Origin: Henricia sp. BOLD:AAB3569
Taxonomy: Eukaryota; Echinodermata; Asteroidea; Spinulosida; Echinasteridae
Reading direction: 5' to 3'
Length of the DNA stretch: 64,000 nucleotides
Assembly: GCA_037783545.1 (NCBI GenBank)
Contig: JBBELK010000058.1
Coordinates: forward strand, 2,356,001-2,420,000
The notes below the pieces were generated by a model. It saw nothing but the letters and a program-made list of their open reading frames with translations, was not told the DNA's origin and did no database searches. Shown here piece after piece: positions 4,101-58,801 of this stretch. Position 1 is the first letter of the stretch. Each line of letters opens with the position of its first letter. The translations under genes and the position numbers were made by a program.

Positions 4101-6477
4101 ATGCAGTTTAGAATTTTTGTTTTGTTTTTACAGAACCAGTAAATTATACAAAACACATAAATTAATTCTTTGTTGGCAAACGATGCATGGTTTTACAAGC
4201 GAGTTTTGTTTTTCATGCACTACTGTTCGATATTAACAATCCAGATTGTGCCTCGTGATAAGTGCTTATAGGCTTCGAAACTGATTCTGGTAGAATGTGG
4301 CCAGTTACTAACTTGAACAGTTGATTGGTTTAATTATTAATGAAACAAAGGCCATTATAAATTGTTGCACTCCCGGCTGTTCTCCATAGGCCTACCCCTT
4401 TTTTTTGTAAATTTCTTCTTTATTCTGCGTGTATAGCGTGTAACTGTTTTCATTTCATTAATTTAAAACAGTCGGCGTTAATTGCGTGTTCATAAAGAGT
4501 GCTGGTATGAGCTATAATATGTGAAACATTTGCTGATACACTGATTCTTTGTGCCCGCACCTTTTGTTTTTACCCGCAATTTATTTTCCCGGTCCGATCG
4601 TTTTGTATTTAGTTTTTATTGTAAATTGCATCTTGCAAAATGCAGACGAGATCCGGGAGTCGTAAAAACTCCGTATTGCCTCCGGCCGTGTGAACCAGAT
4701 AACAGACTGATCAACTTTAGCCAGCTATTTTCTTCATGTCTGAATTTGCATAAATACAATTTGTTACCTAAAAATTTAACCATTAAAAAAATACCCAAAT
4801 CGATCTGCTCTGTTGCCACAATAATGTAGGTTTGTTTACAAGAGACGATGGGAACCGACTGGGAAAATATTATTTATTTTAGGCAATATCGCGGTGTCCA
4901 GAACACACATTTTTTTCTATATTCGAGTTATTTTTCATTTCAACAACAGAATTGTTTGCGGAGTGCACATCTGTCGCGTGGATTTATATATGATTTATTA
5001 AAGCTCAAATCTCGCCATACTGTGCAATATTTGCTATCACTGCATGCCAAGCTAAGCCCAAATCGAAACTCCGGAACACAATTATTATAGTTCAACAGTC
5101 CTGAAACAAATTACTGCACGCATTAGACTTTCAGATGTCTATTGAAATTCGGTGTTGTGGTTTTCATGAGTTGTTCCGCCCTCCGTTGTTAGAAGCAGGC
5201 CACACACACCTGCCGCTAAATGCAAGGGGTGTCAACCATGCCATTACAAGATAAGAGAATCAATTAAGTTGTGTTTACGCGGTGTATGTTCCCCTCCCCC
5301 GTACCCACAAATCGTAGCTCGATGCAGGATGGTATTTCCCCGTCGGGGCACCCAAGAACTAGTTCCGCCACTTCGCTGTACCCCTATAGGCCCCCTATCA
5401 CGACCCTCTCTGAGATAACACAAACTAAATACTTCCCCAAAGTTTTGATTTGAACGCGGAATCAGTTTTGGGTTTTGACTATTTTGAGGGAACTGGCTTT
5501 TTAGGAATCGGAGCTACTTCCGCTTTTCCTCCTTTTGTTGGTATACAATTAACTTGGGAGCATGCGTGTTTGGACGTGCAACAACAAAAGCTAAACAGTC
5601 ATGGGATATACTTCCCTTTAGATTAGTTATTAGTAAAAATTAGAAGTTGACCATTACTATCGTTTTCTTAAATTGTCATACCAACTATCTATAGCTATAC
5701 GAAAAAAAGTAAAGATTTCATTAGCCAATCTTGTATGTTTTGTAAACAATGTAATGACCCCCTAAATTACATTTATTAATGAGTATACCTTTTTCACCCG
5801 GCGGCCATGTTGGGGGACAGTTTTTCTTATATGAATGGTGTTACAATGGAAGCACAAAACGTGTGGAAACAAAACATTTGCCCCTGCAAAGAGTTTTTAA
5901 CAACTGGTCTTTGACTGAAATATTACAATAAAGTTTACATGCAACCCCAAAAAATAAGTTATCAAAACACACAAATGATACAGAACGCGATTAACACAAA
6001 TTTAGGGCCTATACCTAAAAATCTGTATATATTTAAATATTATAGCAACACAAAAATTCTACATTTTGTTCATTTTGTTCATGGAAGATTAAATTGACCA
6101 ATTTTGCTTTAGTCAGTTTATACTGTATAAAACGTAATAATCTTCAATTGATTTGATGGTCATGTCTAATCAGCCCTTACCCAAACTAAATTTATTCAAA
6201 ATCAAATGCAAAGTGTAAATTCCGTAGGTACGTTCCATTTGTACAGCGCAGGTTTAGAAATAAACATAATATTACATTTAACCGATAAATCAAATGTTTT
6301 TGGTAGGAGAATGTTCACAAAAGGATGGAATTTAGAAGAAAAGTGGTATAACTCACCCTTGTTCCTTGGTGTAACCGGTGTAAAGGCACTGGCCAACCTT
6401 GCCTCTGCGTCCATGCTGATTGCCGGGGCATAGGTTACCTTCTTCCCCTTTGCTTTCACTAAGAAAGACCGCGGCAT
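509..6477 (-). CDS. gfi1: Gfi1/Senseless-type SNAG zinc-finger repressor (3' end outside window)
   Basis: Partial gene with coding exons 6357-6477, 3239-3520 and 509-1171, all bounded by GT-AG and joining in phase 1. The start gives [13 protein letters not shown], a SNAG motif, which in this family recruits LSD1/CoREST to repress transcription in the nucleus. The linker is proline-rich. Four C2H2 fingers follow at about residues 247-270, 276-298, 304-326 and 332-354. Fingers 3 and 4 carry the family signatures KRSSTLSTH and HQKSDMKKH. Gfi1 proteins have six fingers; the exon stops at the HTG linker after finger 4, and no exon for fingers 5-6 is found in bases 1-508, so the gene continues off the left edge. 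In animals this family acts in sensory-cell and blood-cell fate. Vertebrate Gfi1 and Gfi1b are duplicates, so the orthologue here may be the single ancestral type. Confidence 0.93.
1172..3238 (-). other. gfi1 intron 2
   Basis: AT-rich intron between linker exon and zinc-finger exon. I see no coding exon, RNA gene or clear repeat in it. Confidence 0.75.
3239..3520 (-). CDS. gfi1: gfi1 coding exon 2 (proline-rich linker)
   Basis: The acceptor follows a T-rich tract ending CCCCAG just above 3520. The joined codon is GAG. The donor used here is AAC G|GTAATT (3238). A second donor CCAA|GTGAGA lies inside the exon, at about 3282, and is also phase 1, so both keep the frame into exon 3. The low-complexity linker ([18 protein letters not shown]) has no domain I recognise. 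Confidence 0.8.
3521..6356 (-). other. gfi1 intron 1
   Basis: Intron between the SNAG exon and the linker exon. The acceptor is preceded by a run of nine T (sense strand). No coding exon or strong repeat recognised. Confidence 0.75.
6357..6477 (-). CDS. gfi1: gfi1 coding exon 1 (SNAG motif)
   Basis: Codes for residues 1-40 plus one base. The ATG at 6477-6475 is chosen because the SNAG motif must be at the extreme N terminus. The donor is G|GTGAGT at 6356-6351. Confidence 0.92.
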
Positions 6478-7182
6478 CTTAACTTCATGAAAGTGGTAAC
6501 TCGACGAAAAGTTTGGGTGCTTATGAGGCGCGGATTAAGTCCAGTAATATACCGATATTTTATAATTACACCGACAGTAGCTACACACCCTCTTCACTCC
6601 ACGTAGGTGCACTAGTAATGTAACTGCAGGCGTAGATTATAAAGTTGAAGCTATGTGATGAGTTGGTCCAAACTTATGAAGAGTCTGAAGGTGAACTGAC
6701 ACAGACTGCTAATTTGCCGGGACTAAATACCACATCGCCAGCAAGTTGTGATTATGCCGAGTTGCAAGGCCTTGTCAAAATCTGAAGCTAAATTAGAAGC
6801 CGGGCTTTCCTTATCACAGGTCGTACTTCACGATTATGTAAATGTGTAGTTTGTGATCATAACGGTGATTGTGTTTCGCATTGCCAGCCGGCCAGCGCAT
6901 GTATGTTACGGCATAGAAACCGGTCTTGCTATTCAACGTTCGTGTACATGGCGATCTTGAGTGAAGTGGTGTCATATGCCTAACAAAAGACGCGCTTCCC
7001 CCACCCATCCAGCGAACTGGGGCTGATGATGCGATGGGTGCATTCGAGCGTGAACCAGGCATGCGCCGAGCGGGGATGAGCGACAGCAGTTAAGAGGGAA
7101 GGATTTCATGGGGCGATTGTGCAGGTATCATTATCGGAAAATCAACTTTACGCACAGCGTGACTAGATTAGCGTTTGATGTG

Positions 7183-7257
7183 ATTGGCGGAGTGTCTGTG
7201 ACGTGAGGTTTACGGTGCTCCGGGCAGCCAATCAGTGACGCGGTGGCCTGTGATTGG
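7183..7257 (-). promoter_or_regulatory. Cluster of three CCAAT boxes upstream of gfi1
   Basis: CCAAT or its complement ATTGG occurs at 7183-7187, 7228-7232 and 7253-7257, three sites in 75 bases about 0.7 kb upstream of the gfi1 start codon. An octamer-like ATTTGCAT follows near 7297. Clustered CCAAT boxes are typical NF-Y sites of promoters. The transcription start would lie at about 7000-7150, but no TATA box decides it, and a spliced leader exon elsewhere is possible. Confidence 0.35.
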
Positions 7258-7299
7258 TCGCTAGATAGAGAACTAGGTTGGCAATGATTGACGTTTATT

Positions 7300-10214
7300 T
7301 GCATGCATGATAATTAGCCTTCCCCATCACTGTATAATGACGATAGGATCAGTGCTTAATAGTAATCCAATAAAGTGTCATTACATTGGGGGAAATTCGG
7401 CTCTTGCTAACTTCGGTTTCTGTGTTTTCCTTTTGGGCCCACGGTCATTACAAAGAATTAGAAAGGGTCTCACCGGATTAAAATTATCGTAGATATCAAT
7501 TCTTGTAATTTTATTACAGTGGCCTCACGTATCGATCCTAGCAGAAGGTTTTTCAAAGGCAGAATGACTATAGGACATACAGAAAACAGCACATTAAACA
7601 CGATGCTAAGGCAAACACAAAGGGAGGCAGTCATTTGTAAATCAAATGTGCTTTTTGCATGTTCTGTAGTCATCCTCCCTTTGAAGAAGAATCTGCTGTG
7701 AACGTGAGGTCACGAATTCTACAGTGTGACTTTGCTCAATTGTATTGGAATTATAAGCAATACTTTAAAGAGAAGTCACACCGCTGGCTGTTTTCAAATG
7801 CGCAGCTCTTGAGTTTACATAAATTGCCCAGCAAAAATTTGGCCATTCTTTATAAAAATAAAAAACGTTTAGAATGACAGGACATCGTGGTATTTGGTAC
7901 ACTAGTGTCGATATAACAAAATCCATGCTTTAAGGAAAATGTTGTACAAAGCTTATTGCTGTGTCATTTAAAATCCTGCCTTTTGTACGTGTAGTTCGAA
8001 CATATACTCATGAAATTATTTCCTCGATTGTAATCGGTTTTGTTCTGTCCGGGTACGGGTCGGCATTAAAAGAAAGGCAATTTTGCATCGGTGCGCGGTG
8101 TGCCCGACTGCAGCTGTCGATTTCGAAGTTTTCCCCGTAACTTAAAAAAAAACTAGCTGTTTACAATTGTTCGATCGAGATAAGGGGTAATAGTGATTTG
8201 TCTGAACGAATAGCAGTGCAGTGAGTTCGGACTTTGGCCCATCGATACGGGATTTGGTTTACTCGCAGTCAGTCAAGAGTAAATATGGTAACTTTTTGTC
8301 ACCTCATATTTAGTTTATCTTTGTGCGGCTCGCGCAAGTCGCGTGCGTCGGTTTGGCTGCGCGTGGCTGTCATGGCGCTGTTTCGACTATCCGTACACGT
8401 GCGCGCTGTATATACAAGAAACCGCTTGGTAGAAAACTTTCCATCATCAAATACGTAACCTTGATAATAATATAATAATACAAAATCCTTGGAGGTAGTT
8501 TTTTGCGTTGTTTTGTGTCTGTGATAGAAAACTTCATTATTTGTGGTAGAGCAAGTTCCAGTTCATAAAGTAGTTTATTGGCGGCATGGGTTCAACTTAA
8601 TGCGAGATGTACTTTTTGTACAGAAGACCTATTCTGTAAGCGTTCGCTTCAGTAGTTATTGGAGATTGTTGAGGGTTAGTTCATGAATTGATACTCGCTC
8701 TGTTTAATTGTTGGTTAAGTTCTCCTGTACTGCATATACACAGTGAAATTCTCCAGGTAACTCCAGCTGCGACCATGAATGGCTTAGCCCATCTACGCAC
8801 GAGGCGACGCGTGAGCTTATGAAGCTCTCCTTGCGCGGCTGGCGCGATCCCCATGGCCTGGGTGGGCCGTTTGACCCCGTCTTATACGGCTTGTTAGTTT
8901 GTGACAGTTAAGAAAGGTGATACCCGCGGTCCCTGTTGCCCCGCCCCACCCTCTCCAGCCACTGCGTAATGGTGCAATTTGCCGGCAATATGGATTGTGT
9001 ATGTCTCGTGTTGACGCACGAGAGCCACGCGATCAGACAAAGGCGAGTGGGGGCCGCCCGCCGTTCAGCGGCCGCCTGCACGCCACAAAGCAACCTAAAC
9101 CGAGCGGAAGACACGCAGCGCGTGCACACTTCGACTTCATTGGTCGCGGACAAAAAATCCCCACTATTTTATGGATGTTTCTGCATTATTTGTGGCGATT
9201 GCAGGCAGCTGCAGAACGGCGGTCGACTCGCGATGTGCCCTCACTGACTAGACTGCGAGAAAAGACGCACTGGGGCGAAAACTTCGCCGCATTGTGCGCA
9301 GGGTCATGATGCTGCGCGTACAGACCCCGTGAGCAGAACCACGAGGGGTGCTTTTGTGAGCCATTGGGCTACAAATCGGTGTGATCTTTGCAAGGTGTCG
9401 AGGGGGCCGATTTGTGGCAGTCCCCGTATAACACCGGTTATCAGTCCCATGCTTTGCAAAGTTCCCCTTAGCCAAGTTCATTCATGCCCAACCCCGCGAT
9501 TCGGCAGGTGCGGACCCGATGGGTCGGCGTATCCAACAACCAAAACAAACACTTGTCCCATTCATATCTCGCTTTCAAGAGCATGTTTGGCAAACACTGA
9601 TAAGTTTTTTTTCTCTTCACTTCTTTACCAACGCCAGCACCAATTTCATGTATACAGGTTTTCCCTACCCATAACTTTTTCGAAAAATGTGAACAAAATC
9701 ACAGTCCTGAAAAAGCAAAATAAAGATATAACCTTTTCCCCTTGTGATTATCCCTGGTAGTTGGATGGTTTTGTTAAAACTTTGTTGTTTGTGTGTGTTC
9801 TTTCATGCAAATCTGCGCCGTGTTATCAATAGCTCGTTTGATCCCGTCTCATCAATCACTGCATGTTGCTGTCTGTCCCCAACCTTTGAAGCCACGCGGT
9901 ACACACCGACATCCAATTTCAATTGCTAACAGTTTTGTCTGTTCCAATTACCAAATTTCCATCAAGTGGGAAAGCTGCATGTGTTTATATTCCATCGTTT
10001 TTCCAGTGACTTGTTTGCCGTCCTTATTTGAGACTGTAGACCATAATTTTCGCAAAAGGTAGTCCAAAGCCAACCAAAAACATCCAGCATTAATAGGCCT
10101 ATACATGTACCTTGAAGATCTGTCACTGCAGTATAAAAATATTTCGGAAGCTTAGTAATAATACTTGCTCCAGTGTCATGAGAGTTTTGAAAGCCCACTA
10201 TATCATTTGCAACA
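7300..10214. other. Non-coding stretch, GC-rich island at 8.75-9.3 kb
   Basis: No gene recognised. The part at about 8750-9330 is richer in G+C and CpG than its surroundings, yet its open frames are short and overlap in several frames without a recognisable domain. It could be regulatory DNA or an old element. Confidence 0.4.
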
Positions 10215-10786: not shown

Positions 10787-10861
10787 GTATAGGGAATCCT
10801 GGAATAAGGCAATCACATATCTAAGAATAATGTTAAAATATAGGCTGCAGAAATTTCAGTT

Positions 10862-14324: not shown

Positions 14325-14843
14325 TTAAAGATAGTATACATGATTGGTAAACTGTTACAAATAGTTTTACCCCCCTGTGTAATTGAAGATATTCATGATA
14401 AAAACTAACCTGAGCAAAAACCAGCTCCGTACTTCGTCTAACTTTTGAGAAAACAGTCAAAAAAGGGTTTACAGTCATTTCGCCCCAAAACTACTTCGCC
14501 CTGAACTACTTCGCCCTATGTGCACGAAGTTGTTTTGGGGTGAAGTGGCTGTTGGGCGAAGTAGTGTTTGGACGAAGTGGTTTGGGGGCGAAATGGCACT
14601 TGGGTGAAGTGATTAAGGACGAAGTGGTCCAGGGCGAAATGGTTTTGGGGCAAATTCAATTTACGTCTCGCGAGACGAAAAATAATTGTTTTGCTCATTT
14701 CCTAAAGACTATAGCACTTCAGACAAAATTATTTCAGGGAAATTTTTCTACCTCATCATGTTTATATCGTGTAAGTTATGTGTAAATCTGTGAACATTTC
14801 TGATTCTTCGAGATAGCCTACCAATCATGTGTACTGCCTTTAA
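14325..14843 (-). repeat. TTAA-flanked MITE with internal TTCGCCC minisatellite, copy 1
   Basis: Terminal inverted repeats read AGATAGTATACATGATTGG at the left and CCAATCATGTGTACTGCCT at the right, each next to TTAA. The centre (about 14475-14650) is a degenerate tandem repeat of roughly 10-12 bases built on CACTTCGCCC / GGGCGAAGTGG, which even changes orientation within the array. TTAA target duplications are typical of piggyBac-type DNA transposons, so this is probably a non-autonomous member of that group. Confidence 0.75.
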
Positions 14844-15325: not shown

Positions 15326-15329
15326 TAAC

Positions 15330-18420: not shown

Positions 18421-19473
18421 CTTTAATCACATGTATTTTGTGAGTTGATATTGCGGAAGAAATAAATGCCGAACATTAGCGACTTTGTATAATCGTTGAA
18501 GCAACCAAGTCTCAGTGGTTAGTTGACAATTTGTACTAACTGGCGAGACATGTTACTTGATTTGTACATGACTAGTAGTTTCTCCTGCATACAATGTAGG
18601 CCTATAGTTTTATTGCCAATGGGTGAACTGGACAATAGGCCTAATTGTCAATCGACAACCTATAACTTCAAATTGCGTTTTTGTGCAAACATTTTCATAT
18701 CAATGTTAATACCCTCGGAATAGAGGAGTCCTCGGGGCATTAATGTTTATAGATGCTATTAAAGCATATAAAGTTATAACGAACGCCATCTGCAAGTTTT
18801 TAATTCTTTGTTCAGCGCGTATATGTGGCTGTAGCCCGCGCACGCGTGGTTCAGACGAGAGTAAAATCAGCACGGGTGGAATTTCTGAACCGTGGCCGGT
18901 CGTAACCTTGAAGAGGCATCGGGAGGAAATCAGTGTATGACATTTTCGCTTTGGCGTGGTTGAAGCATGGTTGAAAATAGTCGATATTCCTTCGGTACGA
19001 AAGGTATAATAAAACACGAATACACCGCTGGGTTGCTTCCCCTGCAATCGTCAAGGAACCACGGCTTCAGAAATCGAAGCAACAGATTATTGTTGAGCGA
19101 CGTACATTTCGCTTGAGTTCTCGCACAGGAAATTGGAGGCAATGATGCCGCATAGTTGTCACGTAAGCGACAATTTCCTGGAGTGGAATTCGTGTCTTCA
19201 GACCCAACAAAGGCACGCAGACAATGTGCTATACGGTAACCGTGAATATTGAAAATGGGAAAATATCTCTACAACTAGGAGCTGGCATAATTGATTCGTA
19301 AAGGTTACACCACTCATATCAATGGAAAGAACATAATGAGTAATAAAAATTAATATTGTTTTTGTTTACGAATCTCAACTTGATGACAGACTCAAAGCGC
19401 GAAGATTTGCGGAATTTAAAGATACTTCTGTAATCCGAGCATTTAGTAAGCCCGCCCTCTTTTAGACAGATTA

Positions 19474-22264: not shown

Positions 22265-22655
22265 GGCCATTTATATGCCAATAGACTACTAAAGTGTGAC
22301 GTCAGTTGCCATAGTAATCTGAAACGCCCATTGGTATAGCGCAGGAAAACAATTCACTGGTTTGAGTGTAGACCCAATAACCATGGCAACACACAAAGGG
22401 TGACGTTTTCACTTTAGTAGTCTATTCCTGTTGTCCTAATTTCTGTATACGCATTGCTAATAAAAAAAGTACGTCCATGAAAGAATGCAAATTGTAAATT
22501 TCTGTATAAATGGACTTTAATTGTATCATGAAGCCTTTTGTGGAAGCAAGTCACATGTACACAAAGCATCTGGTCTTAATAAAATGCTACAGTACATTTA
22601 AAACCAAAATTAAAACCGAATTTGGCGGGCGCGCATTGCTGACGAGCCTGTGCCT

Positions 22656-22800
22656 TTAAAGGCAGAGGCTCTTCAGCAATGAGCGCGCGCGCCAATTTCG
22701 TGGCACGAAATACGCAGCTCCATGCCTTTGCTATATAAAGCTGCGTATTTCGTGGCACGAATTTAGCGCGCGCGCATTGCTGACGAGCCTTGCCTTTAAT
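22656..22800. repeat. Family A hairpin MITE, copy 2
   Basis: AAAGGCAGAGGCTCTTCAGC at the left, GCTGACGAGCCTTGCCTTTA at the right, with a central palindrome built on GTGGCACGAAATACGCAGC. A partial end of another copy abuts it at 22618-22655. Confidence 0.8.
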
Positions 22801-22832
22801 TTCCATAGTAATCTGAAACGCCCATTGGTATA

Positions 22833-23165
22833 CACCAATCCGGTAACTAATATCTCCTCCCTGCATATCCGCCATAGCTGGGGGGCGTCCACTGCATGGG
22901 CTGTGCGTTTTGTGTTGCTGTTAGAACGAAAAGCGCTCATCCATTACATGCACGAACGAGCCTCCTTCGCGTATACGCGACGCGCCCGCCTTTGCGTACA
23001 CGCGACGCGCCCGCCTTCGCGCGCACACAACCCTACAAAGACGCGCAACTTGTTCGAAGTAAACAAATGCAGCTTCAGCGACAACAAAAACATACAGTTC
23101 ATTCAGTGGACGCCCCCCAGCTATGGCGGATGTACAGGGAAGAAGACCTTATTACCGGATTGGTG
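22833..23165 (+). mobile_element. MITE family E with long inverted ends, TATA target duplication, copy 1
   Basis: Begins CACCAATCCGG and ends CCGGATTGGTG; the inverted ends extend inward for about 100 bases, for example CCGCCATAGCTGGGGGGCGT. TATA flanks both sides, and the empty site is visible in unit 1 of the tandem duplication at 22327-22345, so the insertion boundary is well supported. The target duplication is TATA, or TA if the element starts TACACC. No coding frame. Confidence 0.85.
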
Positions 23166-23484
23166 TATAGCGCAGGAAAACAATTCACTGGTTTGAGTGT
23201 AGACCCAATAACCATGGCAACACACAAAGGGTGACGTTTTCACTTTAGTAGTCTATTCCTGTTGTCCTAATTTCTGTATACGCATTGCTAATAAAAAAAG
23301 TACGTCCATGAAAGAATGCAAATTGTAAATTTCTGTATAAATGGACTTTAATTGTATCATGAAGCCTTTTGTGGAAGCAAGTCACATGTACACAAAGCAT
23401 CTGGTCTTAATAAAATGCTACAGTACATTTAAAACCAAAATTAAAACCGAATTTGGCGGGCGCGCATTGCTGACGAGCCTGTGC

Positions 23485-23630
23485 CTTTAAAGGCAGAGGC
23501 TCTTCAGCAATGAGCGCGCGCGCCAATTTCGTGGCACGAAATACGCAGCTCCATGCCTTTGCTATATAAAGCTGCGTATTTCGTGGCACGAATTTAGCGC
23601 GCGCGCATTGCTGACGAGCCTTGCCTTTAA
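23485..23630. repeat. Family A hairpin MITE, copy 3
   Basis: Duplicate of the copy at 22656-22800 produced by the tandem duplication. Confidence 0.8.
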
Positions 23631-24466
23631 TTTCCATGGAACCAACATGAAAATCCATTTTCGTGGTTAACATGAACATCAAAACGGAATGTTAAACTAA
23701 AGGCAGTAAACGAGTATGGTGTTAGGACAGCATCTACATAACCACCAAAAAAGTTCTAAACATGTTCTCTTGAAAATCAAATTTTCAATATCCTAATACA
23801 CACATTAATTGATGCAGTTTTGTTTCTGGCTTCTCAGATATACACATAGGTGTTCATTTATACAAATATGACATGGTTTGAGGGTGGATTGTCAATATTA
23901 GCTCCCTGAGGTATTGGGAGTTGACAAACTAGTTCCCAAGGCAAAACTATCTATACCCTCAAACCATTTTATAATTTTACCATACCTCATAGGCCTACAT
24001 ATTCTTCCCCAGTTCAAAATCAATGACGGCATACGTGACCCACTCTGCAAAAATGAGTGATGTTGCACAGGCCGAGTCGAGTTTTCGCGAACACAACCAG
24101 AAACATGTTGCTGACATTTTACAAAATTGACCAATGATGACCTTTGGGTGAATAAGTGATTACATGTTGTTGTTAAATTTATGGCATCTTCGGCAACTAA
24201 GGCCCTTTTAGATAACTATATACTTTTATTATCAACTTGAGATGACAAAGGAGGAGATGCAGTTTTAGAAGTGGGAGGAAATCCCCAAGAGAAATCCCCT
24301 GGGGGAAAACCCACGCGGTCAAGTAGAGACTGCAAGTGATTACATCAGAAACATATTTCGGGTTATGGTCGCAAAAACGCGGCGATTTTGCAGTAAGTGG
24401 GTCACTTTCTCAACTGGCTCCGCCTCGGGTGTGTGCAGCGCTTGTCGCTATGAGCAAAAACATGTA

Positions 24467-24543
24467 GGCCTACATGTTCATTGTAACCCCATTGTTAGTA
24501 ACAATGGTGTGTGCCCAATTTCCATTGTTAGATGTTCATAGTG
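24467..24543 (+). repeat. Short interspersed repeat, inverted copy at 56627-56703
   Basis: About 75 bases, including GGTGTGTGCCCAATTTCC, recur as a nearly exact reverse complement at 56627-56703. The flank differs by a GGCCTA present here and absent there. Confidence 0.8.
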
Positions 24544-45300: not shown

Positions 45301-48300
45301 GAAACCACAAAAACACATCCCTCTCAAATTCAAACAAATGAATGTAGCTAACCTGATGGATCCATCTCCTTGGCCACTTTGAGGGCGTCCGAGTTGGCCA
45401 AGTCCGAGTTGGCCGGGGAGACAGCTAGAATCAAACAGTTCTCCTTGGAGACAAATTCCATGACCATGTTACGTATCTGCATCTCAATATCGACAGGTTG
45501 GTCGCCCACGGGAATCTTCGTCATCCCCGGTAGGTCAATGAGGGTCAAGCTCAGGACTACAATCAGAAAAGAAATAAATGGGAATTATTTTTAAATTTCT
45601 GCCAAAGTAATCTTATTCAGTTTGCTCATGACCTCGTCACATTCGAGGTGTGATTACTGGCGACAATGTCAGTCGTGCAACTTGGGCCACTCTTGGCACG
45701 ATATTTTCTGCGATGTCATCCTAGCAGTCACAATGCAAGATGTGTCCCCGACTGGTAGCAGACTTGTAGCAGACTGATAGCACGACTGATCGCAACACTA
45801 CTTACAAGTGTAACTGGTAGTGAATGGTCGTGATTGGTTGCGCAACTTATCTCTCTCAAATGATGTCACTTCCTGCAGATTACCACGTACATCAGATTTT
45901 TCAGCTGCGCCATATTTTGAACAAACATTAAGCAACGTGCACTCGGTTCGGAACATTTTTCATGACATACATGCATGTACCCGATGGCATTTAGTACGCA
46001 GCTGTATTTTTAGAAAATGGTCATATGTGAGAGTGGTCATCGTCGGACTGTGGGACGATGAGCAAGTCCCACTTTTAGCCAGGTAAGTCCACTCAAGACT
46101 TAGGTCCCACCATCACACGACCAGAAGACCTGCTTCAAAAGATTAGTCACGACCATTTTTGTCACTGCCAGGTTTTGTGACTACCCAAGACCACATTGTG
46201 ACTACCCAAGACCACCCAAGCTGGTCATAAAATACATGTACTGTGAGTTGTTTTATACATGTACACCAGTGTGACTGTGTCTTTACATCGTGTTTACACT
46301 CGAACCGGCAAAGGTGGATACAGACCCAGCATTTTTATTGCGACCACAAAACTAATTATTTGCCGCGTTTACACTACACCTCGATCCGGCTTCAACTCGC
46401 CTTCAGAAACCGCAAAAGTCACCACTAATTGTAACTGCAGCGCATGCGTGAGCCATTAGGTGTTGCAGAACTGGTGCCAGATTGGTCAATTAAATCTGCC
46501 ACACGGTGGGCACCGCCCCAAGGACACTCAAATTGCCGAATATGTATTCGGGTAGCGTTTACACTACAAGCGACCTTGACAATTGCGGGGTTCAACCCTA
46601 CCCCAAAGGTGAATCAGACCTGGGTCTGATCCGCTTTTTAGCACAATTAGTGCCTACCTGGCTTCAACTCGCCTTTCTGGAAATTGCGGAGTTCGATTCG
46701 GCAAAGGCGAATCGAGTGTAAACAGGCCTTAACTGACTGTTATAAGGTCATCTTGCCAAATGTCAGGAAATATTCTCAACATGTACACACCATGTGGTGA
46801 GTAGACTCGTAGATTGATGGGTATTGGTGAAATGCCCTTGTTGCTACCGGTGATGCGATCCGTCTCAGCTTCAATCTCCTTCCGTATCTCATCAAAATCC
46901 GTAAACTTCTTGCCCCGGCAGTGAAGAAACTCTCCATATTCTAAAAAAGAGAGAAACTTAATGTATTACAATTGCCCAAGGTTACCTTTGAAGATTGTCA
47001 GAAAAAAATAGGTTGTTCATCGTTAATATCTCTTTTTTAAAATTGGAAAAATAATTCAAACAAATTGTTTTTACAAGTTGTTTTTAGACACTTCTGAGCC
47101 AAAAGATTGGACAAAAAGTTACCTACATTTTCTGTACTTTTCCTAATAAAAATAAGTAAAACAATCTCAATCTGCACACAGAAATACACACATGTATGTA
47201 TGTAGATCTTAACCAGAGGCTATAAAGTGGAACAAATATTTTGGAAAATTCACATTCAACAATATTACTTCATGTTATTAGAAAAAAAATGTAAATATTT
47301 TTGTGCCCTTTACTGTTTTGTGTGTGTGTTTGTGTCATGAAGGAATACAGTTATGTGCATCTAAACTGTGTTACTCCAATACAACAGCTGTGTTAGTACG
47401 TAAAATAACACTTGCATGACTAACTCGAGCCAGATTTTGCACATTGCTATGAAAGCTTATGCACTTTAATGTACATAATGTGCTCTACTTCCTCTTACAT
47501 ATTTTATTATGTACATGTACAGTGCAAGAGCAGAACAAATGTCAAACAAGGAAATATTGACCAAATGTTAAAATTATACACATACATGTAAGCCATGTCT
47601 ATAAATACCTACATGTGCATGTGCCACTTACATTTGTTTACATTGAGGGTAGGTCTTAGTCATTACAAAAGAACTGACATTAGATACATGTACCGGTATT
47701 GTGAACATCCTTATTCATTTTACACACTGTGATGTAGTATACAGTAGGCATGCCACACAAAATAACCTTTGCACATGACACAAAACAATGGGCTCTGTAA
47801 GAGATAGATATAAGGCCTTATCACACAAGAGCTTTCAACCCGGGTTGAACTCAACCCCGGGCGAGCCCTGCGACCGCCCCGGGTTGAAACGCAAATTTTC
47901 AACCCCGGGTTCAACCCTGCATCGTTTCACACTTGTTTCGCTCAACCCGCGTTTATCTCGCCCCGGGGCGAGTTCAACCCCGAGATAAACAGTGACGATT
48001 CACACTTGTGCAACGCCAACCCGGGGTGAGCGAAAATTGAGCATTGCGCATGCGTGGGTGCTGTATCCTGTCATGACCTTTTGCACCGACAAGCGGCAAA
48101 ATCTCAACCCGGGGCGAACTCAACCCTGCTTGTTTCACACTACCGTTTTCAACCCGGAGCGAGCGTTTCAACACGGGGCGAAAAATGTCAACCCTGGTCC
48201 CGAGCAGGGTTGAGTTCAACCCGGGTTGAAAGCAATCTCGGGGTTGACGCGGGGTTAAAATTTCTCAAATGTGAATCGTCGCTTTTTTCAACACCGCGCC

Positions 48301-49948
48301 AACCCCGAGATTTTGCAAGTGTGAAAAGGCCTAGAGAGTGGTTTTATGTTACATGTACATGTATTAGGCAGTTTAGGTATACAGGTAACTGGTTACTAAT
48401 AAGTAACATATTTGTTCAAAAAAAATTCCTATTTTAATTAGCCTTTAATTCTGTGCACTGTGCTACAATAAGGCACAACGCTAATCATTGATTTTCATAG
48501 AGATAACAATTTAAGTTTTTCTTTGAAAACACTTTGAACTTTTGTCATGTCCCACAACTGGCAAACTTGTATTTACTTTTTCCCCTTTACAATTTGTAAG
48601 TTACACAAGCGTAGAGAGACAAGCAATACATGTACATACCTGCTTTAGACTGGTTAAGCTGCAATATCAATGGCCTCCTGGTCACAATGCCGGATCCTCG
48701 GGGAAGAAAGTCCCTGTTTGGGAGAAGTGGAATCAGAATTGAATACTTGCATGGGTCTTTCCACGCTAATGGACCTACCGGTATTTGAAAAAAAGTCAAT
48801 AATTCCTTTCAGATGTCTTCAGTTTATCTCAAACTTAAAGAACGTATAAGGGGAAATTTGTACACAAGCTTTTCAGAAATGTATGTTGTGGCAGCATTGT
48901 CTTACCTTTTTGCGCAAAAGTTATCTCCTGAGAACAGGAAAGGGAATTTCTTTAGGTTTGAGATAAACTAAAGACATCTGAAAGGAATTATTTACTTATT
49001 TTTTAAATAGGCTCATTAGCGTGGAAAGACCCACATACATTGGGATCATCATTATACACTGTACAAACAAATTAATCACTGCCTTTAAATATTTGACAAA
49101 AACGACGAGTTACGGTCAACTTACATGTATGTACGTTGAAGATACATGACTTTTACAAACTGAATTCCATATCCGACCACTAAGGAGCAAGTTCGATTCG
49201 TAACTGGAGTTAACCACTGGTCAAACGTCCCGCACACACGCACAAACGTTTACCGGTAAGTGCAAACGCTTTTGCACTTAAACATTGAACAAAGATTTGA
49301 ATGAAATACCTCCTGGAATCAACAGATCATCAAATTCGTGCGTACAGCGCTAGCGACACGGAAAGGACTGCGTACGTGTAAATGTATTTTTTGCCCGATT
49401 AACGATCAGGCTTGATACAGTCTGTCAGCTTTTGGGCATTGGGCAGCCCGGATAACCATTCACGCGCGCGCGCAGCGCCCTCTGTTGTCACGCTTACGCA
49501 CAGACCGCTCGCCACGTCATTTTGTGCATTACTTTATGCAGTAATTTTATCATTTATTTATCTCAGAAATGCAACATTTGCGACAGAAGTGTCAGTGGGA
49601 AGTAGGCCTATATCTTAGAATTGAATAAGCTATCGATTCCAATATATAAATTTACCCAAATCCGTGTTCAATGTATATGAAAAAAATACCGTTTTGTACA
49701 CAAGGTCTGAAGCCATAATCAACTTCTTAATTCTTTCCAACGTTTTTAAGTGTCATCGAGACCTGAAAATACCCAAAATAATATTACCTGCCGACAAAAT
49801 TTTCAAGAACGGAGCTTTTTCCTGCACTCTGCCCGCCCACAACAGCGATTTGCGGCAAGTCGAGAGTGCTACCCAGTCCAATCGAAGCAAAAGCATCTTG
49901 TAATTTATTAACGATGGGTATAAGGTCTTCCATTCCATGGTTACCCAT
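27281..49948 (-). CDS. dnm: Dynamin, complete 19-exon gene, 844 residues
   Basis: Large GTPase that assembles on the necks of clathrin-coated pits and cuts vesicles free. Exons in gene order: 49788-49948, 48640-48713, 46791-46940, 45353-45556, 44653-44751, 44061-44221, 43488-43630, 42611-42814, 41755-41893, 40579-40736, 37972-38032, 34645-34758, 33822-33931, 32820-32955, 32030-32179, 31252-31308, 29906-30081, 28618-28788, 27281-27347. All junctions are GT-AG and all phases agree, giving 845 codons with the stop. Residues 38-46 hold the P-loop GGQSAGKSS with K44; T65, DLPG at 136-139 and TKLD at 205-208 complete the GTPase. Stalk and middle domain follow, then a PH domain at about 515-625, GED at about 645-738, and a short proline-rich tail from about 745 with SH3-ligand runs. 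Length matches the family (about 840-870). It is a classical dynamin, not a Drp1 or Mx type, because PH and proline-rich parts are present. Which vertebrate paralogue is closest cannot be told. Confidence 0.97.
27790..27970. repeat. Two-copy tandem repeat in dynamin intron 18
   Basis: The block GGAGTGACTAGGAGCATTGC...CTACTCCCCCTGGATG recurs after about 111 bases with few changes. Confidence 0.7.
28195..28432. repeat. Hairpin MITE in dynamin intron 18
   Basis: Arms of about 110 bases mirror each other: GGCCAATTTCATAAAGC against GCTTTATGAATTTGGCC at the ends and CAACTTGTGTTCTT against AAGAACACAAGTTG at the centre. Confidence 0.85.
28618..28788 (-). CDS. dnm: Dynamin exon 18 (proline-rich domain)
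   Basis: Residues 766-823, [18 protein letters not shown] to TRHAPSVPR. Several PxRP/RxxP SH3 ligands. Acceptor TTATACAG, donor AG|GTAAGG. Confidence 0.92.
29440..29960 (-). repeat. Five-copy ~104-base array made from the dynamin exon 17/intron 17 boundary
   Basis: The motif CTTACCC (donor on the gene strand) begins at 29484, 29588, 29692, 29796 and 29901, a period of 104-105. The native copy is the last. Each unit holds about 78 bases of exon 17 and 26 of intron. All copies keep GGGTAAGT; the unit at about 29796-29850 is the most diverged. Confidence 0.9.
29906..30081 (-). CDS. dnm: Dynamin exon 17 (GED end, start of proline-rich tail)
   Basis: Residues 708-766, [19 protein letters not shown] to [17 protein letters not shown]. 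Donor GG|GTAAGT. Its last 80 or so bases and the donor are repeated four more times downstream. Confidence 0.95.
30560..31245 (+). repeat. Interspersed repeat family F, copy 1
   Basis: Shares blocks with 33030-33740 and 59095-59370: CCTGGATGAAATCACTGAAG, AGCGATTCCAAAGTG-like, and an upstream GAGGAGGC...AAGGCCGACT block. It surrounds the SINE-like piece and ends beside the exon 16 donor. Confidence 0.65.
30866..31000 (+). repeat. tRNA-derived SINE-like segment in dynamin intron 16
   Basis: GGTGATCGAGTGGTTAAGAC resembles a pol III A box and GTGGGTTAGAGTCAC a B box, at tRNA spacing; the acceptor stem is not convincing, so a SINE head is more likely than a working tRNA. Confidence 0.55.
31252..31308 (-). 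CDS. dnm: Dynamin exon 16 (GED)
   Basis: 57 bases, residues 689-707, [19 protein letters not shown]. Acceptor TACTTTCAG, donor CAG|GTAAGG. Too short to stand out as an open frame; found by homology and splice sites. Confidence 0.94.
32030..32179 (-). CDS. dnm: Dynamin exon 15 (GED start)
   Basis: Residues 639-688, [20 protein letters not shown] and [11 protein letters not shown]. Acceptor ACACCTAG, donor GAC|GTAAGT. Confidence 0.96.
32260..32660 (+). repeat. SINE-like repeat split by a MITE
   Basis: GTCTAGTGGGTATA and, after the insertion, CAGCCATGC...GTGCGATCGAGCC then TGTGGGTAAGACACTTAA. The two halves together look like a tRNA-derived head; related copies in reverse are at 43029-43290 and 43770-44050. 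Confidence 0.6.
32295..32549 (+). mobile_element. MITE family E, copy 2, inside a SINE-like repeat
   Basis: Starts GACCAATCCGGTAAT and ends CGGATTGGTG with TATA on both sides, the same target pattern as the copy at 22833-23165, with which it shares most of its length in diverged form. Confidence 0.8.
32820..32955 (-). CDS. dnm: Dynamin exon 14 (PH domain, part 3)
   Basis: Residues 593-638, [33 protein letters not shown]. Donor GGA|GTAAGT. Confidence 0.96.
33030..33740 (+). repeat. Interspersed repeat family F, copy 2
   Basis: Same blocks as copy 1 in the same order; includes CCTGGATGAAATCACTGAAG and GCGATTCCAAAGTGATTGG. A segment at 33190-33440 with repeated GACTGGTC/GGACCACT words is inserted or extra. 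Confidence 0.65.
33822..33931 (-). CDS. dnm: Dynamin exon 13 (PH domain, part 2)
   Basis: Residues 557-593, [19 protein letters not shown] to FLPDQR. Donor AG|GTAAAA. Confidence 0.95.
34245..34575 (+). repeat. Repeat with tRNA-like end in dynamin intron 12
   Basis: Matches about 45830-46035 in diverged form (ATGACGTCACTTCCT, GATGGCGTTTAATACGCAG). The end TTCAATTGGTAGGGCATC...GCAGTTCAAATCCC resembles tRNA A and B boxes; a 5' acceptor strand to pair with the 3' end is missing. Confidence 0.55.
34645..34758 (-). CDS. dnm: Dynamin exon 12 (PH domain, part 1)
   Basis: Residues 519-556, [18 protein letters not shown] to LSWFKDNE. Acceptor CATTAAG, donor GAG|GTATAC. Confidence 0.96.
35412..35758 (+). 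repeat. TTAA-flanked MITE, copy 2
   Basis: TTAA then AGGCAGTATACAAGATTGG at the left; CCAATCATGTATACTATCT then TTTAA at the right. The TTCGCCC array has shrunk to one or two units here. Confidence 0.75.
36404..36521. repeat. Family A hairpin MITE, copy 5
   Basis: TTAAAGGCACAGGCTTGTC ... GACGAGCTTGTGCCTTTAA with the CGTGCCACGAAATACGCAGC core; TTAA flanks both sides. Confidence 0.8.
36589..37920 (+). pseudogene. 5'-truncated, frameshifted LINE reverse transcriptase (CR1/L2-like)
   Basis: Codes for the reverse-transcriptase part of a non-LTR retrotransposon: [29 protein letters not shown], then YVDDLT and WLQNDLKWG, with the thumb-like [10 protein letters not shown]-type segment [17 protein letters not shown] and stop at 37637-37639. 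The frame breaks at about 36925-36935, in the GLPQG motif, so it cannot make a full protein; the endonuclease and 5' part are absent. The 3' end runs into AATAAAATGAAATGAAAATG, a short-repeat tail typical of CR1/L2 elements. It lies antisense in dynamin intron 11. Confidence 0.88.
37972..38032 (-). CDS. dnm: Dynamin exon 11 (short linker before PH)
   Basis: Only 61 bases, residues 498-518 ([21 protein letters not shown] in pieces), weakly conserved as usual for this linker. Found by phase and position: it restores the frame between exons 10 and 12, has a T/C-rich acceptor tract and donor CAG|GTACTA. A decayed LINE ends only about 50 bases downstream of the donor. Confidence 0.8.
40025..40460. 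repeat. Nested inverted-repeat elements in dynamin intron 10
   Basis: The outer part repeats AGTCATGAC/GTCATGACT words; an inner piece runs from AAGCCCGGTTCATACTTC (about 40212) to TATAAACCGGGCTTTA (about 40363), its ends inverted. Probably one MITE inside another. Confidence 0.55.
40579..40736 (-). CDS. dnm: Dynamin exon 10 (stalk)
   Basis: Residues 446-498, [14 protein letters not shown] to [11 protein letters not shown]. Acceptor TTTTTGACAG, donor AA|GTAAGT. Confidence 0.95.
41180..41360. repeat. Inverted-repeat element with TTCGACGAAG units
   Basis: GTTCTCACTAGAGAAATCGC at the left mirrors ATTTGTAATGAGAAC at the right; several copies of CTTCATTCGACGA lie between. Confidence 0.55.
41755..41893 (-). 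CDS. dnm: Dynamin exon 9 (stalk)
   Basis: Residues 399-445, [17 protein letters not shown] to VRQCGQK. In vertebrates the matching region has two alternative exons; I see only one copy here. Confidence 0.95.
42222..42630 (-). repeat. Tandem duplication including the 3' end of dynamin exon 8
   Basis: Two ~200-214-base units: TATAAGGAGGACAC (42221) to GTTCTTGATT, and TATAAAGAGGACAC (42420) to the native exon 8 end. The copied exon end near 42396-42415 still reads IKNIRSVK with GTAAG on the gene strand. Confidence 0.85.
42611..42814 (-). CDS. dnm: Dynamin exon 8 (stalk)
   Basis: Residues 331-399, [17 protein letters not shown] to AIKNIRGVK. Donor AA|GTAAGA. The last bases of this exon and its donor are copied again 214 bases downstream in the intron, near 42396. 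Confidence 0.96.
43029..43290 (+). repeat. Interspersed repeat family G, copy 1
   Basis: Shares GCTGCCATCAGGGAATCA and GATTAAGTGTCTTACC with 43770-44050 in the next intron. Confidence 0.65.
43488..43630 (-). CDS. dnm: Dynamin exon 7 (stalk)
   Basis: Residues 284-331, [17 protein letters not shown] onward. Acceptor TTATTTTCAG, donor CA|GTAAGT. Confidence 0.95.
43770..44050 (+). repeat. Interspersed repeat family G, copy 2
   Basis: Same blocks as copy 1. On the reverse strand its right part reads CTAGTGGGTACACTG and GGTTCGAGCCTC, resembling tRNA A and B boxes, so a tRNA-derived SINE is likely. It ends close to the exon 6 donor. Confidence 0.65.
44061..44221 (-). CDS. dnm: Dynamin exon 6
   Basis: Residues 230-283, [13 protein letters not shown] to YLQKVLNQ, end of the GTPase domain. 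Donor CAG|GTGAGC. Confidence 0.97.
44653..44751 (-). CDS. dnm: Dynamin exon 5 (TKLD)
   Basis: Residues 197-230, [18 protein letters not shown] and [11 protein letters not shown]4 motif TKLD at 205-208. Confidence 0.97.
45353..45556 (-). CDS. dnm: Dynamin exon 4 (DLPG)
   Basis: Residues 129-197, [18 protein letters not shown] to KEMDPSG. Holds the G3 motif DLPG and the conserved [10 protein letters not shown] segment. Confidence 0.97.
46240..46735. repeat. Repeat-rich MITE-like element in dynamin intron 3
   Basis: CGTTTACACTCGAACCGGC near 46290 mirrors TCGAGTGTAAAC near 46720, with several inner GTTTACACTAC and CTTCAACTCGCCTT words. Confidence 0.55.
46791..46940 (-). CDS. dnm: Dynamin exon 3
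   Basis: Residues 79-129, with [10 protein letters not shown] and [15 protein letters not shown]. Acceptor TTTTTTAG, donor CAT G|GTGTGT. Confidence 0.96.
47808..48332. repeat. MITE-like element rich in CAACCCGGGTTGA
   Basis: Ends GGCCTTATCACACAAGAGC and TTGCAAGTGTGAAAAGGCC are inverted; inside are a dozen or so CAACCCGGG/CCCGGGTTGA units and GC-rich blocks that stand out from the AT-rich intron. Confidence 0.65.
48640..48713 (-). CDS. dnm: Dynamin exon 2 (switch 1)
   Basis: Residues 54-79, [15 protein letters not shown], with catalytic threonine 65. Acceptor CCAAACAG, donor G|GTATGT. Confidence 0.96.
49788..49948 (-). CDS. dnm: Dynamin exon 1 (P-loop)
   Basis: Residues 1-54 ([11 protein letters not shown] to NFVGR). 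The start is the ATG at 49948-49946. The P-loop lysine is residue 44. Donor AG|GTAATA. Confidence 0.97.
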
Positions 49949-51169: not shown

Positions 51170-51652
51170 AAGCGCCTAACTTACACAACATAAACATGAT
51201 GACCGTAGAAAACTTCCCCTGAAATGGTTTTGTCTAAAGTGCTATAGTCTTTGAGAAATGAGTAAAACAATTAGTTTTCGTCTCATGAGACGAAAATTCA
51301 ATTCCCCCCAAAACCCTTTCGCCCAAGTGCCATTTCGCCCCCAAACCACTTCGCCCGAGTGCCATTTCGCCCCAAATCACTTCGTCCAAACACTACATCA
51401 CCCAAATGCTACTTCGTCCCTAAACCACTTCGTGCACAGGCCGTGGTTCAGGGCGAAATGGTTCAGGGCGAAGTGGTTTTGGGGCGAAATGACTGCAAAC
51501 CATTTTTTGACTGTTTTCTCAAAAGTTAGACGAAGTACGTAGCTGGTTTTTGCTCAGGTTGGTTTTAATCATGCATATCTTCAATCACACAGGGGAATAA
51601 AACTATTTGTAACAGTTTACCAATCATGTATAGGCCTACTATCTTTATTAAA
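51170..51652 (+). repeat. TTAA-type MITE, copy 3, with long TTCGCCC array
   Basis: The left terminal repeat is missing; the right end reads CCAATCATGTATA, then an extra GGCCTA, then CTATCTTT. The minisatellite at about 51300-51485 contains CACTTCGCCC units in both orientations. Confidence 0.7.
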
Positions 51653-51659
51653 GCGCCTC

Positions 51660-53051: not shown

Positions 53052-53445
53052 GTAAGTCATTTGATTAAGCACACTTTTAATTGACTTGTATAACAGGCCA
53101 CATTAATTTATTAATTTGCAAACGAAAAAAAGTGCAACCAAGTCACAGAAATCACATTTCAGTGTACGTGCCACTTCAATAATTAAATTTCCAGTTCAAT
53201 TATTTCCTTTAAACTCCTTTTATATTTGTGCAAATGTATATACACCAATAATACAAACGTTTCAATTATTATTGTAATGAGTTTTATAATTTAATGTTGT
53301 ATTGTATTCACCAACGAGTAGGCCTACCGTTTAAATACCCTATATGTAGTGCGCCTGCAAAATAATATAAAGTTTATAAAGTAGGCTAAACCAACTATAG
53401 AGCGTGCGATCGAATTTTAAATATATTTAACGTTCTGTCTTTCAG

Positions 53446-54362: not shown

Positions 54363-54387
54363 TTAACGTCCAGCTAGCAACATTCCT

Positions 54388-55727: not shown

Positions 55728-56046
55728 CCAGATCAAAAACTGGATTTCGTTCCAACCTAACGATTACGTAAAAAAGATTCCCCAAAATACTATCCATGCA
55801 ATCCCAAATTTGGATGTGAAAGCAAAAATGTTGGTGTAATCACTGCAGCACTGTTTTATGTAACCGGAAACATTAGTTTACTAAACTTCGGTGGCGTGGA
55901 TCTTTGACGATATCCTTGAAAATATACGGATTTAGGGCGCGAAATTTCAGAATGGTAATGAGAAAAATATGACAAATGATATCGTATCAAAAATCTCAAC
56001 ACCCATATAAATGAGGGGGTAAAAAATGTGATCTGGTCACACTCCT
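55728..56046 (-). repeat. MITE family H, copy 2, inverted orientation
   Basis: AGGAGCGTGACCAGATC at the left and GATCTGGTCACACTCCT at the right; the inner sequence is the reverse complement of copy 1, without the long C tract. Confidence 0.8.
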
Positions 56047-56049
56047 TTA

Positions 56050-56330
56050 TAAAGTCTGTATACAGGTTTTGCAATGTCCCACAAATTTGTTCAACCGTTT
56101 GACTAGAAAACCGTACTCAAATGGAAGATAGAAGTGGTTTCAACTTCATGGATAGAACTGCGGCTTCGTACACTTTCTTGAAAGCATGGTCACATTTAAA
56201 AAAATTGTTTTCTCAGAACGTGGATGAGGTACTTGACTGAATTGTACATCTGGTTTTTTGTCATACACATCCCCAACCACACATGAAGATAACGCCATTT
56301 GCAACAGTATTGTTTTTTTCAAACCTGTAA
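56050..56330 (+). repeat. Family C repeat, copy 3
   Basis: Follows family H directly, as copy 2 does at 54388, so the two families may have spread together. Holds GTCTGTATACAGGTTTTGC and ACTTTCTTGAAAGCATGG. Confidence 0.55.
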
Positions 56331-58801
56331 ATAACCGAACACCTACCACCGACATGTATCAGTTCGAGTACCGAACTTGCAGATGGGTTTTTTTCTTTCT
56401 TTCAAACAAGTTTAAAATCGCGAACCTACCTTCTCACAAACGATGATCCCTATAACCAATACCTGATGGTAACGATCACAAATAGTGGCAAATATCCTCA
56501 CCATTATTAAAGGATATTTCCGAGGCAGTGCATGGAAGTAAGTACTCGTTTGGCATGATTTCCACTGGTATTAAATAAAAGCATATAGGTCGAGAAATAC
56601 ACCCTTGTAGACATTTCAGCCACATACACTATGAACATCTAACAATGGAAATTGGGCACACACCATTGTTACTAACAATGGGGTTACAATGAACATGTAC
56701 ATGTTTTTGCTCATAGTGATATGCAGTAATACTTCAGAAAACCTGAAAAATCCAAGTACGGTTTTTGTGCACGAATGAATGGCTCAAAAAATCACATACA
56801 GGCGATCTTTGGAGATTCAAACAATGTTGTAATTTTTCTCATGAATGGGGGCAATTCATACTGCAGAGGAAATAATTTCACAGGATGATTACTACCATTA
56901 CCATCTTGATAACAAGTAAACTTAAAGATGATAATTCAGAATTAGGGTAATTACCAAACAAGTAGACTACCTTTAAATCGCTCCGTTTTATCATTTCCGT
57001 GTTGTAGGCCTATCATCTTTTATAGAAAAGAAATAGATCGTGTATCACTGCTCCTCCCGCCTCTAATTAGCCGCGACGAGGATAAGTCATACTTCACTAA
57101 CCCTGGACTTCGATCACGCATGTAGATGAATTAGTGCGCATAATGTATTAACCTAATTCACGGCAATACAAAAGTATAGGCCTATATACGGAAATCTCGG
57201 ACACAAACTGCAATTATAGTAAAATATAAAGGGATATGGGAGGATAGAGATGGTCTGCTAGTATTCTCTCTTTGCACGGACGGTCATATCGAGGCTAGGC
57301 TCTGCGTGCAAGAACAATGACTCCCTCGCGTCGCCATTAATTTTCGTACTCGAATTATACTCTAAAGTAATGCTGGCGCATACTATTTGTATATTTAAAA
57401 AGAAATACCCGCTTTAGTTTTGTCCAAAGATAAATCCAACTGCACTATACGTGAGGGATTTCTCTTGTATAGGTCTAACGAGTGAAAATTTATTGACATG
57501 ACATAGTCAAGACAGACAATATGGCTTTAAAAGCATCACAAAAATACACGTACAGTATACGCAATAACGCGTGATAAATAAGGTTGTTGAAGTGAAATGA
57601 GTAAAGACGAGAAGTACAAGTAACAAATTTGTACCCACTCTTGACCGTGTTTAAGGTACACTCCTAGCCGGTCGCAAGGCACCGAACAGGTCCCTTTGGG
57701 ACGCCGAGAGTTGCGCTGTCTCTGCACGGTGTGGTAACAGACACGGGTCGCTGAGACAACACGAGACACCGTACGATGTGCATCCAATTCCCATCTGAAT
57801 TTATTCGTTCACCTCCTGAAAAGATACTTTAAAGGATCAGACCTTATTCTCGACAATCCTTAGGTTGATTTTCTTTTGGCTCGGCACTGCAGAAAAAAAT
57901 TGACAACAGCGTCATCGCATGTACCGAGACGAATTACAAATAAAGTGCAATATACGCACGCACTGGGATTTTTTGAGACACATTTATTTAATGTTATTTA
58001 TTAGTATATATAATTATTTTTAGCTCAAATAATCTAACAATTTTTCGGTGTACGAGATGGTGAAAGGAAATAGAAACGGCGTCGGTTTGTCTATACTCTC
58101 TCCAAAACCCATTAATTCCATAAAACTTCCAATAATGGTTACAGAAACCGAATGATTTAATAAAGTATAGGCATTCCTTGTTGTAAAGTGGGACCTAGCA
58201 CGAAACCACTGGGGACATTCGATACGACTAGCCGGAAGATGGCAGTCAACGGCTGTGAAATGGACCACACGCAGCCGCAACCACTCGTTAGTTCCGAGGG
58301 TTCTTATAACCATGTTGCCAAGGAAATTGCAAGGCATGAGTTCAGACGTCGATGTTTCACAGACGGTTCGATGATACCGAACCTTTGCGGCGGTTTTTAA
58401 GGCCTGGCCGCAGGGGGAATTTCAAGGGAAAGATAATGCTTATCCGTCTTCGTGAATAATTTAGCGAGAATTTCTTGAGAGATTTAATCTAGTGCAACGA
58501 ACTGGCACTGCTGATGAGGTTAAGCAACAGGGAACGAAGCTTTAAAAGTAATTTAACCGAGTGACAGTAACTAGTAGATAATGCTCAATAAATGTTACGT
58601 CGGACAAAGAGTGAATAATTTTCAGAAACAAATGCCATATGGATTCTTGAAACAATGCGTATAATATACAATTCGGCGAGCGGACTACTGGTAAACATGT
58701 GAAGCCATAATCATTTTTAACGACCCGATTAAAGGTTTTACGCCGGAAATGGTAGCCAATTAATGCGAAATGCCAATTAGTGCTGTTCCTTGTCTTCGCA
58801 G
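56331..58801. other. Remaining intron before the coding exons
   Basis: Holds the inverted short repeat at 56627-56703 (partner of 24467-24543). Open frames at 57536-57787 and 58542-58934 on the minus strand have no domain I recognise and no splice support. Confidence 0.45.

Follow-up and report, generated by a model that had tools for sequence, protein, structure and literature searches.

When a transposase of the Tc1/mariner type excises its transposon, a few terminal bases stay behind at the donor site and become the footprint through end joining (PMC7827188, PMC7913693, PMC3770610, PMC2874221). In the cited passages, which concern assays of single elements, footprints of Tc1, Sleeping Beauty, Frog Prince and ZB show a TA duplication, terminal bases between the TAs and length heterogeneity from end joining. 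Scars of miniature inverted-repeat elements of the Stowaway/mariner type, from a different host group (plants), are described in similar terms in PMC4561436, with a small duplication and bases of the element ends left by excision. Passer, of the pogo superfamily (DD35D), is reported to favour TA within AAGTACTT, i.e. R-TA-Y (PMC9976928). Here we describe the palindromic octamer TAGGCCTA in a 64-kb stretch of the sea star Henricia sp. BOLD:AAB3569 (G000:C58:2356001-2420000, called the window below) and in the whole assembly (740.7 Mb in 2,104 contigs). Copies of the octamer are, with high confidence, mainly transposon excision footprints. They share the features listed above for Tc1/mariner footprints, but scars of three types have built up across the genome to the point of being among its top palindromes, and the source that suits the GG scar is of the pogo type. 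Excision footprints are known; what is new is the genome-scale load, the several scar types, the chains and the spectrum at a single target. A literature search, with most subscription journals outside its scope, met no earlier notice of the octamers among the papers listed, which were about primers, transposons in general or unrelated matters; this does not establish that the octamers are unreported.

The octamer occurs 13 times in the window (203 per Mb, compared with a genome mean of 85 per Mb). Dinucleotide shuffles of the window contain it 0.42 times on average and three times at most, none of 100 shuffles reaching 13, and the trinucleotide-based expectation is 0.38. The over-representation claimed in the preliminary description is thus borne out; the 12 positions given there are all correct, and one further copy had been overlooked. 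A near variant, TAGGGCCTA, is found twice in the window. The excess is also present genome-wide, with 63,297 copies compared with 2,437 of a control (the word reversed); the dinucleotides of the window would predict about 5,208.

Among the 16 palindromes of the form TA-NN-N'N'-TA, only TAGGCCTA, TACATGTA and TACCGGTA are strongly enriched, with 13, 23 and 4 copies in the window where 0.45, 1.33 and 0.45 are expected. A sample of 15 stretches of about 10 kb on other contigs (149.7 kb; 20 were requested, and five contigs were too short) contains 8, 86 and 18 copies, respectively, the lowest five TACATGTA counts per stretch being 0, 0, 0, 1 and 1. After tandem-repeat masking, window and sample together comprise 181 kb, and the three words are the top three among all TA-4-TA words: TACATGTA is found 104 times, TAGGCCTA 21 times and TACCGGTA 21 times, where a trinucleotide-based model predicts 5.95, 1.04 and 1.32. 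Few short palindromes in the DNA examined are as strongly over-represented. TAGGCCTA is one scar word of three, and TACATGTA is the commonest in the sample. In the masked sequence joined forms such as TACATGTACATGTA and TACATGTACCGGTA are in excess too, and no chain containing TAGGCCTA was seen apart from TAGGCCTATA. The extreme is one sampled stretch, L130, with 35 copies of TACATGTA, 11 of TACCGGTA and 2 of TAGGCCTA in 10 kb after masking, many of them chained; its first part (1-8300, i.e. G000:C2:300001-308300) is dense in TACATGTA, TACCGGTA and shorter forms, often in chains, and is unlike the other sampled stretches. Some further palindromes are in excess, probably in part because of tandem arrays: GCGCGCGC is one, and the sample adds ACGGCCGT and a few more. 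A scan of viral contigs for paired octamers gave 120 stretches, which served only as a count.

Relatives of all 13 window copies and of two other sites were sought in 250 kb (Table 1). Three of the 13 (24465, 49603 and 51631) can be aligned across the octamer, and the relatives have TA there in all three cases. TA is also found in the nearest relatives of the TACATGTA at 59368 and the TACCGGTA at 48776, two sites chosen for a previously seen indel; at 48776 another relative (L133:9252-9335) has TG, and L123 and L124 align with a 4-nt gap. Each of these five scars (three GGCC, one CATG, one CCGG) is a small derived insertion at TA that leaves TA on both sides. An all-against-all comparison of 250.6 kb yields 37 distinct 6-nt insertions; nine fit TA-xxxxTA, with GGCC in three, CCGG in two, CATG in one and three others in repeat-rich loci. 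The preliminary description had compared three pairs of repeat copies in which the octamer seemed extra. The site at 24465 indeed differs from its inverted copy at 56719 by one 6-nt gap across a 103-column alignment, and at 51631 the octamer is extra to copies at 14326 and 35755 that have TA. The third pair fails: the local alignment of 28554 with about 41620 does not extend as far as the octamer, and when the two are aligned globally they differ by only 2 nt there.

Table 1. Scar words and related features of the window
Feature	Position	Strand	State in relatives or remark
TAGGCCTA	4009..4016		overlooked in the preliminary description; no relative in 250-kb sample
TAGGCCTA	4387..4394		short low-complexity matches only
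TAGGCCTA, directly followed by TACATGTA (10102-10109): adjoining scar words	10094..10101		no relative in 250-kb sample
TA-flanked element with inverted repeats and CA ends (CACCAATCCGGTAAC...)	22831..23167
Empty copy of repeat end (TATA target) used for genome-wide spectrum	14326..14367	-
TAGGCCTA	18597..18604		no relative in sample
TAGGCCTA, 39 nt from copy at 18597	18636..18643		no relative in sample
TAGGCCTA	23990..23997		no relative in sample
TAGGCCTA scar within repeat	24465..24472		TA in inverted copy 56719-56623
TAGGCCTA	28554..28561		comparison with ~41620 unsupported
Empty copy of same TATA-target repeat end as 14326..14367	35714..35755	+
TACATGTACCGGTA: nested CATG and CCGG scar words with common TA	47685..47698
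TACCGGTA scar, inverted-repeat element	48776..48783		TA in L133:9686-9601 and other window arm
TAGGCCTA scar	49603..49610		TA in relative L121:1156-1207
TAGGCCTA scar, end of high-copy repeat	51631..51638		TA in 14326-14367, 35714-35755 and L131
TAGGCCTA	53319..53326		no relative in sample
TAGGCCTA	57005..57012		no relative in sample
TAGGCCTA	57177..57184		single 22-nt match (L126:1516-1495, E 0.004), likewise filled
TACATGTA scar	59368..59375		TA in relative L137:506-436; GA in more distant window 33689-33757

The repeat end at 51631 can serve as a natural assay. Its empty form is CAGTTTACCAATCATG-TA-TA-CTATCTTTA, and the genome has 5,069 exact matches to this end when up to 14 bases are permitted after the first TA. 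The plain TATA form makes up most of the first 100 matches; one or more extra bases (gap of 3 to 22) are present in 351, and about 93% have none. These rates are approximate, since copies that have diverged escape the exact anchors and a single copy may be counted twice when the gap varies. Among 100 listed variants, 41 contain an exact TA-insert word: TAGGCCTA in 21, TACATGTA in 15 and TACCGGTA in 5. These occupy the first and second TA in ratios of 6:15, 11:4 and 2:3, respectively; the GG and CA scars thus differ in preferred TA (Fisher p 0.017), as different transposases would be expected to do. The same list includes the length variants GGCCC (2), GGCCCC, GGGGCC, CCGGG, CACGTG and a double CATG, and further variants, mostly singletons, such as CAGTG, CTAG and CTG.

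Of the 21 listed copies filled with TAGGCCTA, 20 were fetched (the remaining one lies in the window), together with 20 empty copies from contig C1. The outer flanks of the 20 filled copies are all different. Nearest neighbours carry the same label in 18 of 40 cases (permutation p 0.73), so the filled copies form no clade, and a quick, poorly resolved tree needs at least 10 changes (shuffle mean 13.5). Many gains are therefore independent, perhaps with some shared. The insertion at this target is derived and recurrent. That the octamer might instead be ancestral in each repeat and removed by 6-nt deletions, one of two outcomes named in the preliminary description as refuting its proposal, is refuted for this target; the other, lack of a genome-wide excess, is contradicted by the counts given above.

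Sequence starting with GG at the target was found at 71 places, of which 31 were fetched. These comprise scar variants (three copies of GGGCC, and GGGGCC, CCGGG, GGTC or GG alone), one-sided deletions or chains, CAGGG starts (3), TAGGGCTTGGGAATG in two copies, a GGGTA start at the second TA of the target (L193, only this end read) and a few unclassed starts (L194, L216, L218). The CAGGG or TAGGG starts at this TATA (L205, L206, L207, L196, L197) look hAT-like; L196 and L197, with the common start TAGGGCTTGGGAATG, may also belong to another GGG-ended element. CAC starts were found at 69 places, and the 20 read are mostly T-to-C substitutions, with several unclassed and one CA-ended element (L230), whose end matches by eye that of the CA-ended window element in Table 1. 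For both types, then, retained elements recognised at the target are rare compared with scars, several fetched starts being unclassed.

A candidate source for the GG scar is found among pogo-type elements. A genome-wide search for DDE_1 transposases gives 51 matches, 19 of them at 89.0-90.9 bits with open reading frames (ORFs) of 635-681 aa; 16 of these 19 have an identical score, and such near-equal scores suggest recent spread. One locus, L250, has at 581-4063 the arrangement TA-GGGTAACATGGGG... and inverted GGGTAGAATGGGG...-TA around a 663-aa ORF that matches DDE_1 (PF03184, E 2.1e-24) and HTH_psq (PF05225, E 9.6e-9). Its ends read TA-GGGTAACATGGGGTATCTGGGACA and inverted GGGTAGAATGGGGTAACTGGGACA-TA; they are 24 nt long with three differences and TA outside, and the element measures 3,479 nt from GGG to CCC. 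The DDE_1 domain with a helix-turn-helix and the TA-flanked terminal inverted repeats place it in the pogo superfamily. By eye, the protein of L250 (1667-3658) has a cysteine-rich, PHD finger-like C-terminus for which Pfam listed no domain. Three other pogo-type loci (L251-L253) have no convincing TA-flanked ends.

Ends of this type were searched for genome-wide, with A, C or T as the sixth upstream base. Of the 43 found, 41 have TA directly before GGG, and the remaining two have TAG or TAGG, i.e. TA with extra Gs; the TA-flanked transposons with GG and CC termini that had been predicted thus exist. Fourteen neighbouring end pairs span 3,444-3,481 nt (nine) or 2,059-2,339 nt (five). A or G precedes TA at 31 of the 41 ends (p 0.003 against a background of 0.52). 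The flanks of the scars show a matching R-TA-Y bias (Y follows in 47/58), and elements and scars do not differ significantly in this respect (Fisher p 0.62). The GGCC core corresponds to the terminal bases of GGG-ended elements, which the variants GGGCC, GGCCC and GGGGCC extend. TAGGCCTA is thus likely to be mainly the footprint of a GGG-ended pogo-type lineage, with elements like L250 as the probable makers. Passer resembles these elements in its pogo-type transposase, in short terminal repeats with duplicated TA and in the R-TA-Y preference; its transposases are given as 400-500 aa (PMC9976928), compared with the 663-aa ORF here. Of the two readings in the preliminary description, the one supported is excision of an element that inserts at TA and ends in GG...CC; the best-matching source, however, is pogo-type (DDE_1 with a Psq helix-turn-helix) and not Tc1-type.

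A Tc1-type source for the GG scars is the alternative that survives best, although we consider it unlikely. Search for DDE_3 transposases gave 1,537 candidates, of which 150 were scored, and ends were read at 14 DDE_3 loci and at sample loci. One Tc1/mariner-type family in AT-rich sites, TATA-GGTTTTCYCGG (L149, L150, L152, L212), comprises four copies with a DDE_3 match in which GG adjoins TA at 8/8 ends. In every one of the eight, GG is preceded by TATA, whereas TA occupies the +1,+2 positions in 7/26 window scar flanks (hand count). Furthermore, the third base in this TATA-GGTTTTCCCGG... family is T, whereas the length variants of the scars have G or C there, and the terminal repeat may in fact begin with TAGG.

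Other elements are relevant to the other two words. TA-flanked elements with CA ends are found at L145, L211, L213, a related copy L147 and L131 (ends only); in L145 (CACTACAAAAAAAAGTTA) the CA end lies beside TA, and HTH_Tnp_Tc3_2 and DDE_3 match. Such ends predict TACATGTA as the scar, and we conclude that TACATGTA, the scar word of Tc1 itself, is here the scar of CA-ended Tc1-like elements; TACCGGTA would then come from a source with CC ends. TA-flanked elements ending in AA (L144, L215) and ends that are possibly TACTCTCC (L151, L214) also occur; L146, L148 and L210 have no clear ends. A search by shared 12-mers for TA-bounded repeats with GG or CC ends gave no GG word and only two with CC, of which one lies in a tRNA-like repeat; a TA-anchored inverted-repeat search gave no abundant GG or CC family, and a PF01359 search one weak match only. 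An apparent GGG-ended repeat in L132 was dropped as a candidate, its matching ends running beyond TA (CTGTTAGGG).

For the pogo-type lineage, the proposed course of events is as follows. A transposon with GGG...CCC terminal repeats would insert at TA and duplicate it, giving TA-GGG...CCC-TA. Excision by the transposase would leave about two terminal bases per end, and end joining would fill this remainder to TA-GG-CC-TA, or sometimes retain at least three bases on a side, as in GGGCC and GGCCC. Each scar would thus add six bases and put two TA sites in place of one, so that scars could be hit again and chains would form. The same process would yield TACATGTA from elements ending in CA...TG and TACCGGTA from elements ending in CC...GG, and the octamers that lack alignable relatives would have the same origin.

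Several observations weigh against this account. Recognised GGG ends are few (43) compared with 63,297 octamers, so that most scars must stem from relatives of greater age or from deletion derivatives. In 250 kb, ten of the 13 window octamers have no relative alignable across the site, and the sole relative of the copy at 57177 also carries TAGGCCTA. Not every TAGGCCTA is a scar, because substitution explains the copy in L123/L124, which sits in a repeat arm whose partner arm has TTAGGCCAAAAA. At the TATA target, 12 of the 100 listed variants are a plain gain of TA, and many match no scar type exactly. On the tree there is slight clustering of the filled copies (a count of changes as low is reached by 14 of 300 shuffles), and they are less diverged than the empty ones (0.070 compared with 0.138), so some gains may be shared. 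A CC-ended TA-flanked source of TACCGGTA was not found in the 250-kb sample or at the transposase loci read; TATACCA occurs at the target and may be a substitution. Finally, no excision event was observed, and the evidence comes from one reference assembly.

The remaining alternatives dispense with transposon excision. Filling of a break at TA by untemplated or hairpin synthesis would give similar 6-base insertions, and three different cores do exist. However, a core built by independent additions at each end would not be self-complementary, whereas GGCC, CATG and CCGG account for 41 of the 100 listed variants; the length variants extend the bases expected of GGG, CCC and CAC ends, and GGG- and CAC-ended elements at TA exist, which makes such an origin very improbable. 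A functional motif under selection, such as a palindromic protein-binding site, might explain a perfect palindrome in strong excess. We regard this as extremely unlikely, given that the octamer is a derived insertion of 6 nt at TA, that the dispersed repeats in which it appears have unrelated flanks, and that two other palindromes and length variants occur at the same TA. A generally ancestral octamer deserves almost no credence, as no support for it was found, extra bases of any kind are present in only 351 of about 5,069 target copies, and these inserts vary in sequence and occupy two TAs.

Other features of the window include a 473-bp direct duplication (22334-22806 and 23165-23637, starts 831 nt apart) that is 100% identical and, amid inverted repeats, appears very recent and local. 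A 104-bp unit is repeated 5.2 times at 29441-29986 (93% matches). A reverse-transcriptase-like fragment at 36601-37639 has two overlapping frames, the second of which matches RVT_1. On the minus strand, the open frame at 387-1196 contains several zinc fingers of the C2H2 type and may resemble Gfi1.

Scar words make excision, usually invisible in genome sequence, countable. One repeat end provides thousands of copies of a single target and so lets three scar types be compared directly in hit rate and repair spectrum, and the words allow the terminal bases of rare or vanished transposons to be deduced. Tentatively, cut-and-paste transposons, some of them now with only tens of recognised copies, may have entered and left so many TA sites that many of the small insertions in this genome are their scars; as every scar creates new TA sites, the process would feed itself in some regions (as in the chains of L130); palindrome excess alone could then count past transposition by families without surviving bodies. 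A palindrome in strong excess in an animal genome may be a repair scar rather than a regulatory motif.

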